DNA from: an uncultured Gemmatimonadota bacterium
GTDB taxonomy: Bacteria > Gemmatimonadota > Gemmatimonadetes > Gemmatimonadales > Gemmatimonadaceae
Assembly (NCBI GenBank): GCA_903910555.1
Contig: CAIVZZ010000013.1
Span: 124,001 to 188,000, forward strand
Length of the DNA stretch: 64,000 nucleotides
Direction of reading: 5' to 3'
Both the position numbers and the translations under genes were made by a program. The notes below the pieces were generated by a model. That model worked only from the letters and a program-made list of their open reading frames with translations. It did no database searches and was not told the DNA's origin. Shown piece by piece: positions 24,838 through 33,519 of this stretch. Position 1 is the first letter of the stretch. Every line of letters starts with the position of its first letter.

Positions 24838-24895
24838 GAAGAACGACCGTGGTAGGGGAATCCCAAAATCTGGCTGACGGCGTGTATTATTGGCA

Positions 24896-25885
24896 ATGTT
24901 TCCCGGCCTCGCGCTCGTGATTGCGGTGTCCGCGGTGGCGTGGGGCGCCGAGTTGGTGCTGACCGCCATCGTGGGCCATCCGACGCTCGAAGCCATCGTA
25001 CTCGCGATTTTGATCGGCGCGGTGGTGCGAACTTTCTGGGCGCCGCCCGCCCGGTTCGCGCCCGGGATCGCGTTCGCGGCGGGGATGCTGCTCGAGATTG
25101 CGATCGTGCTGCTCGGATTTGGCGCTGATCTTCAGCAGTTCATTCGCGCGGGGCTGCCGCTGGTGGCGTCGATTGTCGGCGTGGTGATCGCAGCGATTGC
25201 GACGGGCGTCGCAATCGGCCGTGCGCTTGGCCTCACGCCCGTGCATGCGCTGCTGGTGGCATGCGGCAACGCGATCTGCGGCAACTCGGCGATCGCCGCG
25301 ATCGCACCTGTCGTCGGCGCAAAGAAAGAAGAAGTCGCTTCAGCGATCGCGTACACCGCGGTGCTCGGCGTAGTGGTGATTCTTGGCTTGCCCTATTTGG
25401 CGCCGCTGTTTGGACTGAATGACTATCAGTACGGAATTCTTGCCGGACTGACCGTGTACGCGGTGCCGCAGGTGATCGCGGCGGCGTATCCGGTGAGCAT
25501 TCTCGCCGGTCAGACTGCGACGCTGGTGAAGCTGGTACGCGTCCTGATGCTTGGGCCGCTAGTGGTGGTGCTTTCGCTCTGGAGTCGGCGCAAAGGCGCA
25601 GGACGCACGGCCGAAGCGGGATTCGGACAGCTCGTGCCCTGGTTCGTGATTGGATTCGTCATTGCCGGCGCGCTGCGCTCTGCCGGCGCGGTGAACGTTC
25701 CATTTGCTGATTTTGCGCGTGATTCTGCGCGAGTGCTCACCGTGCTCGCGATGGCTGCGCTCGGCTTGAACGTCGATATTCAGGCGATTCGCAAAGTTGG
25801 TGCGAAGGTCGCGCTCACGGTTACCGGATCACTTGCCGTGATGGTCACGATTGCATTGGCGATCGTGAAGTGGCTGCCGCGCTAA
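24896..25885 (+). CDS. YeiH family putative sulfate exporter (UPF0324)
   Basis: The 329-residue protein has about ten membrane helices and the family blocks LLGFGADL, GNAICGNSAIAAIAPVV (with the CGNSAI motif) and GLAVYAVPQVIAAA-like GLTVYAVPQVIAAAYPVS. ATG at 24896 is used; TTG at 24890 is in the same frame. TATTAT at 24885-24890 stands 5 bases before the ATG, so the transcript may be leaderless. It is divergent from the amidohydrolase gene, with a 58-base gap. Its last 57 bases overlap the opposite-strand ParE-like gene. Confidence 0.82.
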   Translation: MFPGLALVIAVSAVAWGAELVLTAIVGHPTLEAIVLAILIGAVVRTFWAPPARFAPGIAFAAGMLLEIAIVLLGFGADLQQFIRAGLPLVASIVGVVIAAIATGVAIGRALGLTPVHALLVACGNAICGNSAIAAIAPVVGAKKEEVASAIAYTAVLGVVVILGLPYLAPLFGLNDYQYGILAGLTVYAVPQVIAAAYPVSILAGQTATLVKLVRVLMLGPLVVVLSLWSRRKGAGRTAEAGFGQLVPWFVIGFVIAGALRSAGAVNVPFADFARDSARVLTVLAMAALGLNVDIQAIRKVGAKVALTVTGSLAVMVTIALAIVKWLPR

Positions 25886-26170
25886 TCGGATTGTGAGAAT
25901 CACGACCTGATCCTCGTCGACCCTGTAGATCACGCGGCACGGCTCGATCAGGATTTCGCCAACTCGAACGCGGCGATCCAACTCCCGGACGCCGTGTCCG
26001 CGCAACGAGCGGCGAGCGAGGCCAGCGACGAGCGCGAGCAGGCGCTGCGTCCAGCGCCACGCGGTGCCGCGATTTTGCAGGCGAATGCGTTCAATGAACC
26101 GCGCGGCCTGAGCCTCTGCGATCGGAGACCAAACAACTTCCCGGGCAGACTTATCGACCGTGGATAGCAC
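25829..26170 (-). CDS. ParE/RelE-family type II toxin
   Basis: The roughly 113-residue basic protein matches the ParE toxin pattern: VVWSPIAEAQAARFIERI, an Arg-rich middle, then RVRVGEILIEPCRVIYRVDEDQVVILTI near the end. The start is taken as GTG at 26170 (VLSTVDKSAR), which overlaps the antitoxin 3' end by 20 bases; no ATG is available nearby. Toxins of this fold poison gyrase (ParE) or cleave mRNA on the ribosome (RelE); which applies is not readable. The 3' end overlaps the YeiH gene by 57 bases. Confidence 0.78.
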   Translation of the reverse strand: MLSTVDKSAREVVWSPIAEAQAARFIERIRLQNRGTAWRWTQRLLALVAGLARRSLRGHGVRELDRRVRVGEILIEPCRVIYRVDEDQVVILTIRLARQPLHDRQCNRDHHGK

Positions 26171-26414
26171 GCAGGCGCGTCTCCACTGACGTTTGCGCCG
26201 AAAGAGTTCGCGCGGCTGCCGTGTCCTCGGCGTCGCGCACGTCACGCAGAATGGCGAACTCCTCAACGAGCGCATTGTACGCGTCGACGCCTATCACGAC
26301 CGCCGCGGCGCGCCCGTGCTGCGTGAGAATCATCGGCTGATTCGTCGCCCGGATTCGCGCGACCATCCTCGCCGCATTCGCCCTGAACTCGGTCATCGGG
26401 CACACATCAGGCAC
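26151..26414 (-). CDS. Phd/YefM-family antitoxin
   Basis: The Phd/YefM DNA-binding domain reads MTEFRANAARMVARIRATNQP, then MILTQHGRAAAVVIGVDAYNAL, followed by a toxin-binding tail. The start is unsure. An ATG at 26519 would add 35 codons, but those codons contain the four-site GTAC operator (26452-26493), so a GTG at 26414 or 26405, or the ATG at 26396, is more likely; GTG 26414 is used here. The antitoxin should neutralise the ParE-like toxin and repress its own operon. Confidence 0.82.
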   Translation of the reverse strand: MPDVCPMTEFRANAARMVARIRATNQPMILTQHGRAAAVVIGVDAYNALVEEFAILRDVRDAEDTAAARTLSAQTSVETRLRAIHGR

Positions 26415-26451
26415 GAGTCGGCCTACTGTCTCCGCCGCGGCCTCTACGATT

Positions 26452-26493
26452 TGTACGTCAGAACGTACGTTTTTCTGTACAAAATTCGGTACA
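26452..26493. promoter_or_regulatory. Four-copy GTAC operator array with 12-bp period
   Basis: GTAC cores lie at 26453, 26465, 26477 and 26489, exactly 12 bases apart. Flanked cores are TGTACG, CGTACG, TGTACA and GGTACA. The E. coli yefM-yoeB operator has two TGTACA-core palindromes with 12-bp centre spacing; this locus has the same geometry with four cores, directly upstream of the predicted antitoxin start. Confidence 0.8.
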
Positions 26494-26688
26494 GAGAGAA
26501 AAGCTGGGGGAAACGACATAGGGGCTCGCGGGCTAGCGGGGTGACAGGACGACGCGGATAACGACGATAACGCGTGCGAACCCGAAAACCGCCATCGTTA
26601 CACCGCATACAAAATCAAAACGACGCGGCCTCCTCCAATACGACGCCGGTGGTGTCAGCTTCGCAGCGGCGGCAGCGCCAGGAGATCA

Positions 26689-27054
26689 CTAACCTTTTCG
26701 ATAGCTCGCGCGCCAAACCCACCAGATCAACACCGGCTGAAGCGGCAGGCGCAGCCAGAGGGCGGCCTGCGCAACGAACGGCGCGCCCGCATCAATCGAC
26801 TGCCGCAACATCTCGACGTTCGCCGGGAAAACGGCAATCAACAGCGCGATCAAGCCGATTCCCGCCGCGCGCCGCGTTTGAGGCAACAGCACTCCGATGC
26901 CGCCAAGCAGCTCGGCCACACCGCTGAGTTGCACGATGAGATGCGCGTTCGGAAGCCACGCCGGCACAATGTGCTCGTACGAACCGGGAATCACGAAATG
27001 CATCGCGCCCGCGAATACGAAGAACAATCCGAGGATGACCGTCGAGACTTTCAT
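26689..27054 (-). CDS. DoxX-like small membrane protein
   Basis: The 121-residue protein has four membrane helices (near residues 4-20, 39-61, 67-85 and 100-115). The layout VILGLFFVFAGAMHF, then LVQLSGVAELLGGIGVLLPQTRRAAGIGLIALLIAVFPAN is typical of the DoxX/MauE-like quinone-associated family. The ATG at 27054 is divergent from and only 16 bases from the esterase start at 27071. Function unknown. Confidence 0.7.
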   Translation of the reverse strand: MKVSTVILGLFFVFAGAMHFVIPGSYEHIVPAWLPNAHLIVQLSGVAELLGGIGVLLPQTRRAAGIGLIALLIAVFPANVEMLRQSIDAGAPFVAQAALWLRLPLQPVLIWWVWRASYRKG

Positions 27055-27064
27055 GTCGTATAAT
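27035..27064 (+). promoter_or_regulatory. Promoter for a probably leaderless esterase mRNA
   Basis: A perfect TATAAT at 27059-27064 is followed by six bases and then the ATG at 27071, the expected transcription start. ATGACC at 27035-27040 is a 4/6 match to the -35 consensus with an 18-base spacer. The -35 lies inside the 5' end of the divergent DoxX-like gene. Confidence 0.6.
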
Positions 27065-27070
27065 TGCACC

Positions 27071-27937
27071 ATGTCACGCCTCGCGACGATTTCATTGATC
27101 CTCGGCCTCGCGCATTTGGCCGCACCGGTCGCCGCCGACGCGCAAATTCGCGTCGAGCACGACATCAAGTACACCTCTGGCGCGGCATACGCCGACAACA
27201 AAGACAAACTCGACGTCTTTATACCGCAGGGCGCAAAGAACGCGCCCGTGATCATCTCGCTCTACGGCGGCGCGCTAACGGCCGGCGACAAATCCGAGCA
27301 GCCGTACGTCGGCGAGCGACTTGCGGAAGCCGGGAACGTGACGGTTCTTATCAACTACAGACTCTCGCCGACTGTCGCGCACCCCGCGCACGTGCAAGAC
27401 GCGGCGCTGGCCGTTGCGTGGGTAAGAAAGAACATCGCGAAGTACGGCGGCGACCCGAACAAGATCGTGCTCACGGGCCACTCCGCCGGAGGCTATCTCA
27501 TCGCACTGTTGCTGCTCGACCCGCGCTACCTCGCGGCAGTCGGGATGAAGCCGTCGGACATTCGCGGCGCGGCGCCGGTGAGCGGCTTCTACTATGTCGA
27601 AGGAACGGGAGTCGGACCGGACCGGCCGAAATACATCTGGGGTGCCGATCCAAAGGCGTGGCCCGCTGCGTCGCCGGCGTCATACGTCCGCGCGGACCTG
27701 CCGCCGATACTGCTCCTCTACGCCGACGGAGACGATGCGTGGCGGCGCCAGCAGAACGTCGATTTCGCCGCCGCACTCCGCGCGGCGGGCGACAAGAATA
27801 TCGAAACCCACATGATACCGGGCCGCTCACATCTCACCGTCTGGTACACGATGGAGCACGGCCAGGACGAAACGTCGCGCGCGATCGAAGACTTCGCGAC
27901 GAGAGTCCTCAGCTCAGGATCTTCCTCAAGAAAGTAA
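27071..27937 (+). CDS. Exported alpha/beta hydrolase (HSL/kynurenine formamidase-like esterase)
   Basis: The 288-residue protein has a signal peptide (MSRLATISLILGLAHLAAPVAADAQ). It has ISLYGGALTAGDK at the oxyanion position (HGG is YGG here), the nucleophile elbow GHSAGGYLIA, Asp in LLYADGDD and His in GRSHLT. It should hydrolyse a small carboxylic ester or amide in the periplasm. The last 29 bases overlap the 3' end of the opposite-strand dienelactone hydrolase gene. The upstream ATG codons of a longer frame are ignored because the signal peptide begins at 27071. Confidence 0.84.
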   Translation: MSRLATISLILGLAHLAAPVAADAQIRVEHDIKYTSGAAYADNKDKLDVFIPQGAKNAPVIISLYGGALTAGDKSEQPYVGERLAEAGNVTVLINYRLSPTVAHPAHVQDAALAVAWVRKNIAKYGGDPNKIVLTGHSAGGYLIALLLLDPRYLAAVGMKPSDIRGAAPVSGFYYVEGTGVGPDRPKYIWGADPKAWPAASPASYVRADLPPILLLYADGDDAWRRQQNVDFAAALRAAGDKNIETHMIPGRSHLTVWYTMEHGQDETSRAIEDFATRVLSSGSSSRK

Positions 27938-31335: not shown

Positions 31336-33519
31336 TTAGATAAAGAGCGGCGCAAGCACCAGCGTGATCGTCGAGAGCAGCTTGATCAACACGTGCAGCG
31401 ACGGACCCGCCGTGTCCTTGAACGGATCGCCGACCGTGTCGCCAACAACTGCGGCCTTGTGTGCGTCAGACTTCTTGCCGCCGTACACGCCGGTCTCGAT
31501 GTACTTCTTCGCGTTGTCCCATGCACCGCCGCCGTTATTCAGGAAGCCGGCCATCAGGATTCCGGTCGTGGTAGCGATCATCAGGAAGCCGGCCACGGCC
31601 TCAGCGCCGAGCCTGGTATCAGCACCGCCGATCGCCTTGAAGATCAAACCCACGGCAATCGGAAAGACGAGCACCAGCGCACCCGGGAGCACCATCGCCT
31701 TCAGCGCGCCAACGGTCACGATGTCAACGCACGCGGCGTAGTCAGGCTGCTCCGTGCCCTGCATGATGCCGGGACGCTCCTTGAACTGACGGCGCACTTC
31801 TGTGATCACGCTCTGCGCGGCCTTCGAAACAGCGGTGAGCGCGAGCGACGAGAACCAGAACACGAGCATGCCGCCGAGCAGCGCCGCGCCGAACACCTGC
31901 GGCTTGCTCAGGTCGACGTGCAGCCGAGTACCGGTGTAGTTGCGAACTTCGTCGAGGTATGCCGAGAACAGCAGGAAGGCGGCGAGTGCGGCAGAACCGA
32001 TCGCGTATCCCTTCGTAAGCGCCTTGGTCGTGTTGCCGACCGAATCGAGGCGGTCGGTCTTGTCGCGAATGCTCTCCGGCTGCTTCGACATCTCAACAAT
32101 GCCGCCGGCGTTGTCCGTGATCGGTCCGAACACGTCCATCGCGAGGATGTAGCCGCAGGTGCCGAGCATGCCCATCGTGGCGACGGCAGTACCGAAGAGA
32201 CCGCCGGCCGCTTCGCCGTCGATCGTAATCCCGCTCGCGCGGCCGATCATGAAGCTCGCGACCAGCGCGATGACGATCGTGATCACCGGCATGACGGTCG
32301 ACTCCATGCCGACCGACAAGCCCATGATGATGTTCGTCGCCGGACCCGTGCGCGACGCATCAGCAATCGTCTGCACAGGGCGATAACGGTACTCGGTGTA
32401 GTACTGCGTGATGAAGACGAACGCGATCGACGTTGCAACGCCGACGAGCGCGCAGAGGAAGAAGTGCCACCACGCGTCCGGCGCGGCATCGGTCTGCAGC
32501 AGCCACTTGCACGCGAAGAAAATTCCGATCGAGACGAGGAACGCCGTGAGGTAGTAGCCGCGGTTCAGCGCGTCCATCGGGTCCGCGTCTTCCTTCGTGC
32601 TCACCGACATGATGCCGATGATCGAAGCGACGAGACCGAACGACATGATCACGAGCGGCAAAAGAATACCGGCAACCCCGAACTGCTTGAACAGGACCAC
32701 GCCAAGAATCATCGCGCCGATGTTTTCAGCAGCGGTGCTCTCGAACAGGTCGGCGCCGCGGCCTGCGCAATCGCCGACGTTGTCGCCGACGAGATCTGCG
32801 ATAACTGCCGGATTGCGCGGGTCATCTTCAGGAATGCCAGCTTCGACCTTGCCGACAAGATCCGCACCGACGTCAGCAGCCTTCGTGTAGATACCGCCGC
32901 CGAGCTGTGCGAAGAGCGCGACGAACGACGCGCCGAATCCGTAGCCGACGATCAGGAACGGGATCTTCGTGGCCCACACCGCGGCGTCCATGCCGGACGG
33001 GGCGAGCATCGAGAGGATCGCAAACAGGCCGCCGACACCGAGCAGCGACATCGCTACGGTGAACAACCCGGACACCGCACCACCACGAAGCGCCGTCTGC
33101 AGCGCGGCGTTCAGCGAGGTCGTCGCGGCCGCCGCAACGCGAATGTTTGCGCGGATCGACACCCACATCCCCATGAAGCCCGCAATGCCGGAGCTGAGCG
33201 CGCCGAGCAGAAACGAGAGCGTGATGTAGATCGCGAGCGCCGTGCGGTCGCTGACCGGATCGGTCGGCGCGCTCGTGCGCAGCACGCCGTAGCCAACCGC
33301 GAGCAGCGCGGCGACCGCGACTGCGAGCACCGAGATCGTCTTGTACTGACGCGCGAGGTAGGCCTCAGCGCCTTCCTGAATCGCGTCAGAGATCTTCCGC
33401 ATCTCGGGTGTGCCGGTCGGGCGCGCGAGAACCCACTTCGCGAGGGCGACGGCAAAGACGAGCGCACCGATTGACGCGCCGAGGATGATCGTGATGAGAG
33501 TGGACTGCGACGGCTGCAT
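31336..33519 (-). CDS. hppA: Membrane-bound H+-translocating pyrophosphatase (K+-independent type)
   Basis: The 727-residue protein has the core motif DVGADLVGKVEAGIPEDDPRNPAVIADLVGDNVGDCAG and the C-terminal acidic block GDTVGDPFKDTAGPSLHVLIKLL, with about 16 helices. It couples PPi hydrolysis to ion pumping. The GNTTKALTKGYAIGSA segment has Lys where K+-dependent enzymes have Ala, pointing to the K+-independent proton-pumping class. ATG at 33519 is 1 base after the upstream permease stop. Confidence 0.94.
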   Translation of the reverse strand: MQPSQSTLITIILGASIGALVFAVALAKWVLARPTGTPEMRKISDAIQEGAEAYLARQYKTISVLAVAVAALLAVGYGVLRTSAPTDPVSDRTALAIYITLSFLLGALSSGIAGFMGMWVSIRANIRVAAAATTSLNAALQTALRGGAVSGLFTVAMSLLGVGGLFAILSMLAPSGMDAAVWATKIPFLIVGYGFGASFVALFAQLGGGIYTKAADVGADLVGKVEAGIPEDDPRNPAVIADLVGDNVGDCAGRGADLFESTAAENIGAMILGVVLFKQFGVAGILLPLVIMSFGLVASIIGIMSVSTKEDADPMDALNRGYYLTAFLVSIGIFFACKWLLQTDAAPDAWWHFFLCALVGVATSIAFVFITQYYTEYRYRPVQTIADASRTGPATNIIMGLSVGMESTVMPVITIVIALVASFMIGRASGITIDGEAAGGLFGTAVATMGMLGTCGYILAMDVFGPITDNAGGIVEMSKQPESIRDKTDRLDSVGNTTKALTKGYAIGSAALAAFLLFSAYLDEVRNYTGTRLHVDLSKPQVFGAALLGGMLVFWFSSLALTAVSKAAQSVITEVRRQFKERPGIMQGTEQPDYAACVDIVTVGALKAMVLPGALVLVFPIAVGLIFKAIGGADTRLGAEAVAGFLMIATTTGILMAGFLNNGGGAWDNAKKYIETGVYGGKKSDAHKAAVVGDTVGDPFKDTAGPSLHVLIKLLSTITLVLAPLFI

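Follow-up and report, generated by a model that had tools for sequence, protein, structure and literature searches.

The window analysed here, a 64-kb (64,000-nucleotide) stretch of DNA from an uncultured Gemmatimonadota bacterium, carries on its minus strand a pair of adjoining genes preceded by a periodic array of short palindromic cores (Table 1). The first gene was assigned to the Phd/YefM antitoxins in the initial annotation, and its product does exceed the gathering score of PF02604 (52.6 bits against a cut-off of 29.8, E-value: 3.8e-14) as well as the cut-off of TIGR01552 (31.0 against 20.8). The second open reading frame lies 3' of the antitoxin gene on the same strand, overlaps it by 20 bp and likewise encodes a protein that exceeds its family cut-off. 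The sole Pfam match of this protein is PF05016 (ParE_toxin), so that the partner is ParE-like instead of the YoeB-type toxin expected of a yefM-yoeB module. The toxin gene converges on a YeiH-type gene (Cons_hypoth698 in Pfam; plus strand, 24890-25885), and the two overlap by 57 bp (25829-25885). Upstream of the array is a DoxX-like gene with a weak Pfam match. In G096, a genome of the same genus, the YeiH-type gene is directly followed by a dienelactone-hydrolase-like gene (L106:2300-3250); the window's toxin-antitoxin, DoxX-like and esterase-like genes (about 25886-27908) are missing from between the two.

Table 1. Features of the antitoxin-toxin locus and its upstream GTAC array (window positions; flanks as read on the plus strand)
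Feature	Position	Strand	Remarks
Phd/YefM antitoxin (87 aa), read from the favoured GTG start	26151..26414	-	PF02604, TIGR01552; codon statistics fall upstream; predicted start
Open-frame extension from ATG 26519, contains the array	26415..26519	-	GC3 0.46; coding LLR -0.10 per codon
ParE-type toxin (113 aa), start GTG 26170	25829..26170	-	PF05016, E-value 7.3e-10; homologous toxins follow the relatives' antitoxins
GTAC core 1 (gene order; farthest from antitoxin domain)	26489..26492	-	flank GGTACA; palindrome GTAC only
GTAC core 2	26477..26480	-	TGTACA palindrome
GTAC core 3	26465..26468	-	flank CGTACG; within AACGTACGTT, a 10-bp perfect palindrome
GTAC core 4 (nearest antitoxin domain)	26453..26456	-	flank TGTACG; palindrome GTAC only

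The four GTAC cores follow one another at an exact period of 12 bp, with the positions and flanks that the initial annotation had read. Palindromy extends beyond 4 bp at two of them (26465 and 26477) and is confined to GTAC at the outer two. The window contains 186 GTAC sequences, a frequency at which 4.6e-6 four-core arrays would be expected at period 12 and 2.6e-4 if every period from 5 to 60 is admitted. Of the four GTAC-N8-GTAC matches in the window, where shuffling gives a mean of 0.09, three belong to the array and the fourth is found at 32389-32404. A chance origin is ruled out by the shuffles and the expected counts (~5e-6). No other place in the 3.2-Mb genome has three GTAC cores at 12-bp spacing; a second Phd-like gene of the genome, which falls short of the family cut-off (C6:68023), has no 12-bp ladder upstream. 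The 40 bp of the array have a GC content of 40%, compared to 62.5% for the window, and fall in the lowest 0.5% of 40-bp windows. A plus-strand transcription terminator at 26452-26469 was rejected, as the scan gives one site against 1.8 by chance; this match is probably a by-product of the palindromic cores.

Operators with this geometry are known from other toxin-antitoxin modules. In E. coli yefM-yoeB, TGTACA cores are spaced 12 bp centre to centre, with the L palindrome over the -10 box and the S palindrome around the start (PMC7730913, PMC4803016), and altering the 12-bp spacing abolishes the cooperative binding of YefM (PMC4803016, PMC3920265). The likeness to yefM-yoeB that had been proposed from the letters is borne out for the core geometry: a YefM-type operator has at least two GTAC/TGTACA cores at 12 bp upstream of the antitoxin gene, and the window's Phd/YefM gene is preceded by four at exactly the published spacing (PMC7730913), of which one is a complete TGTACA. 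Unlike yefM-yoeB, which has two sites, the window combines four sites with a ParE-like toxin and no visible consensus promoter. Enterococcus axe-txe also has two TGTACA cores at 12 bp and a YefM-family antitoxin (PMC7730913), but it differs in having only two sites, in the placement of L in the -35/-10 linker and of S partly over the -10 box, and in its Txe toxin. Because the antitoxin HipB of hipBA is known to bind four operator sites cooperatively (PMC3920265), the presence of four sites is not in itself a new principle; HipB, however, is a helix-turn-helix protein with the consensus TATCCN8GGATA and an unrelated toxin. In ccdAB, a multi-copy antitoxin-toxin complex spreads over the promoter and the 5' end of the gene (PMC3920265), but here a ribbon-helix-helix antitoxin nucleates from one hexamer and there is no ladder of defined cores.

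Homologues of the antitoxin were gathered across the order and the phylum and the DNA upstream of each was read, giving a locus table of 68 rows and, as L251 duplicates L039, 67 loci. The periodic array that the initial annotation had expected relatives to share was found in 45 of the 67, where at least two GTAC cores precede the gene in 12-bp register. Counted as the longest 12-bp series of exact GTAC, the number of cores is zero in 8 loci, one in 14, two in 27, three in 17 and four in one, the window, which surpasses every other locus found by one exact site. Upstream GTAC pairs are spaced by 12 bp in 64 cases and by 24 bp in 20, with no other spacing in more than three, and near-cores with one mismatch outside the runs are enriched at a distance of 12 alone (12 cases compared to 2 to 5 elsewhere). 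In the window 48 bp separate the last core from the antitoxin domain model, compared to 33-58 bp in relatives, whose ladders sit upstream of the ATG in differing frames. Relatives have a common spacer, (A/G)TTATTCT, from which the window spacers differ. Although related loci are non-independent samples, the ladder is found across many genera, and sequence comparison indicates that it is a conserved operator-like feature of these antitoxins. An antitoxin search of genome contigs gave just two distant relatives (in Anaerolineae and Deltaproteobacteria assemblies), both without the ladder.

The ladder also has a preferred position relative to a putative promoter. Among the 45 loci with at least two cores, 17 have a TTG placed exactly 17 bp upstream of the core 1 TAC, and no other spacing occurs in more than two. 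This suggests that in relatives TTG is the -35 box, that core 1 lies on the -10 box (TACRTT) and that core 2 lies near the transcription start, an arrangement like that of E. coli yefM-yoeB. The full layout, in which TTG is followed after 17 bp by a TACRTT that shares its TAC with core 1, is common to many relatives (L034-L061, L237-L245). In the window array no TTG is found 17 bp before any core, and a sigma-70 consensus scan of the array strand gave no recognisable promoter there.

The antitoxins of relatives start, usually with ATG, approximately six codons before the conserved domain and downstream of the ladder. Because the codon at this position in the window is GAG, the start appears to have moved. 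The initial annotation placed it downstream, and the codon statistics favour this placement, at GTG 26414 and downstream of the array, which we regard as the probable start. Codons 1-35 of the extension have a GC3 of 0.46 and an LLR of -0.10 per codon, compared to 0.76 and +0.21 for the body of the gene; among coding segments only 1.6% have a GC3, and 4.4% a likelihood, as low as this. The region 26415..26519 is then probably a leader with the operator, or possibly a 35-residue N-terminal extension. If translation began at ATG 26519, as we think rather unlikely, the array would be coding, either as an intragenic operator or as a partly coding coincidence, and its 12-bp period would correspond to four codons, with valine (GTA) at every fourth residue. 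The frame is indeed open, and the nearest relative (G120) conserves the ATG at the position equivalent to 26519, together with an alignable in-frame extension that has a one-codon gap; GTG 26414, by contrast, is not conserved in G120. The dN/dS against G120 is about 0.45 for the extension, which is below 1, and 0.18 for the body. However, changes in the extension relative to G120 show a weak third-position excess (11, 14 and 18 at codon positions 1-3), and its 17 identical residues in frame are similar to the 14 and 13 of the other frames. No Shine-Dalgarno sequence is visible before 26519, and in the other relatives the ladder precedes the ATG in differing frames.

We are fairly confident that the four cores form the operator through which a Phd/YefM-ParE type II toxin-antitoxin operon regulates itself, because relatives carry the 12-bp ladder, with two to four sites, at a similar distance from the domain. 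The array is far beyond chance and unique in the genome, the codon statistics of the extension are unlike those of window genes and the array is AT-rich, all of which support an operator; the absence of a recognisable window promoter, the spacers unlike those of relatives, the moved start and the decay of the ladder in G120 count against it. Autorepression is normal in this antitoxin family, and the array is most likely an unusually long version of the family's autorepression operator, which is of a known kind. In such an operator, with a putative higher-order repressor assembly as the initial annotation proposed, each core would take one antitoxin dimer and the 12-bp spacing would allow neighbouring dimers to bind cooperatively, as in YefM, with the toxin adding to repression as in YefM-YoeB. 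Basic repression would come from the first two sites, which in relatives appear to cover the -10 box (core 1) and the start (core 2), while sites 3 and 4 would extend the occupied stretch toward the leader and ribosome-binding region and make repression tighter or steeper.

How the operator came to have four sites was also considered. The initial annotation proposed that it had been doubled, but the four 12-bp units (GTACCGAATTTT, GTACAGAAAAAC, GTACGTTCTGAC and GTACAAATCGTA), compared by eye, have the core alone in common, and relatives have three cores as well as two. A recent doubling of a two-core unit is consequently without sequence support. A tandem or coding repeat was rejected because the spacers are mutually unrelated, unlike those of the repetitive coding four-core arrays elsewhere. 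Stepwise gain or loss of sites would fit the series of two, three and four sites better than doubling does. The geometry of the operator is believed to govern how a toxin-antitoxin module reads the ratio of antitoxin to toxin. It is a speculative extension that site number acts as an evolvable dial, moving in 12-bp steps from two to four, and that an array of four sites seeds a longer filament of antitoxin and toxin reaching into the leader, with steeper conditional cooperativity than in any two-site module. The feature itself is real, as a longer form of a known operator, and its useful part is the series: homologous modules whose operators have two, three or four identically spaced sites form a natural set in which the effect of site number on repression and conditional cooperativity could be tested directly.

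The G120 locus (L065, G120:C58:7451-7762) bears on whether the module is still in use. Its antitoxin frame is fused to a toxin remnant (residues 64-113) and its ladder reads GTAT, GGAC, GTAC and GTGC, with three of the four cores decayed by one base; this module is a relict. Comparison of the two loci suggests that the four-site ladder is older than the split between the window and G120 and decayed upon loss of the toxin. The coincidence of ladder decay with toxin loss is mild evidence that the ladder serves the module. As G120 has three decayed cores and a truncated toxin, the lineage may be losing the function of the module. The window array could by extension be a relict operator that drives no working promoter, in a module losing its function in this genus; the lack of a consensus promoter at the array, the loss of the canonical start codon, the state of G120 and the module-free syntenic site in G096 are all consistent with this. 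We nevertheless consider it improbable, as all four window cores are intact and both the antitoxin and the toxin are above their family cut-offs, whereas under neutral decay broken cores would be expected, like those of G120.

It is very improbable that the cores are bound by a different regulator sharing this motif and period, even though AT-rich four-core TGTAC arrays with a 12-bp period are also present where no Phd gene is near, such as those close to an endonuclease IV-like gene in the genus g83: the ladder accompanies the antitoxin family in many genera, and self-repression is the norm for that family.

Four-core arrays were found in 15 of 345 genomes of the class, the window's included. 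All except the window's either are repeats in coding sequence or have no Phd gene nearby, so that the 345 genomes contain no second four-core Phd operator, and fuller searches of two families (21 and 121 genomes, some of them shared) also gave no other. No Phd operator was found among the viral four-core loci listed (at least 120) with a profile specific to this antitoxin subfamily. In three species of the genus g83 (1500-1540 in each of L100, L101 and L102), four TGTAC cores at a 12-bp period form an AT-rich array reading MSTVDELGAHVSVAGGVDRAPGRA. These arrays lie near a gene named by eye as endonuclease IV-like, not a Phd/YefM gene, and are probably the operator of another regulator.
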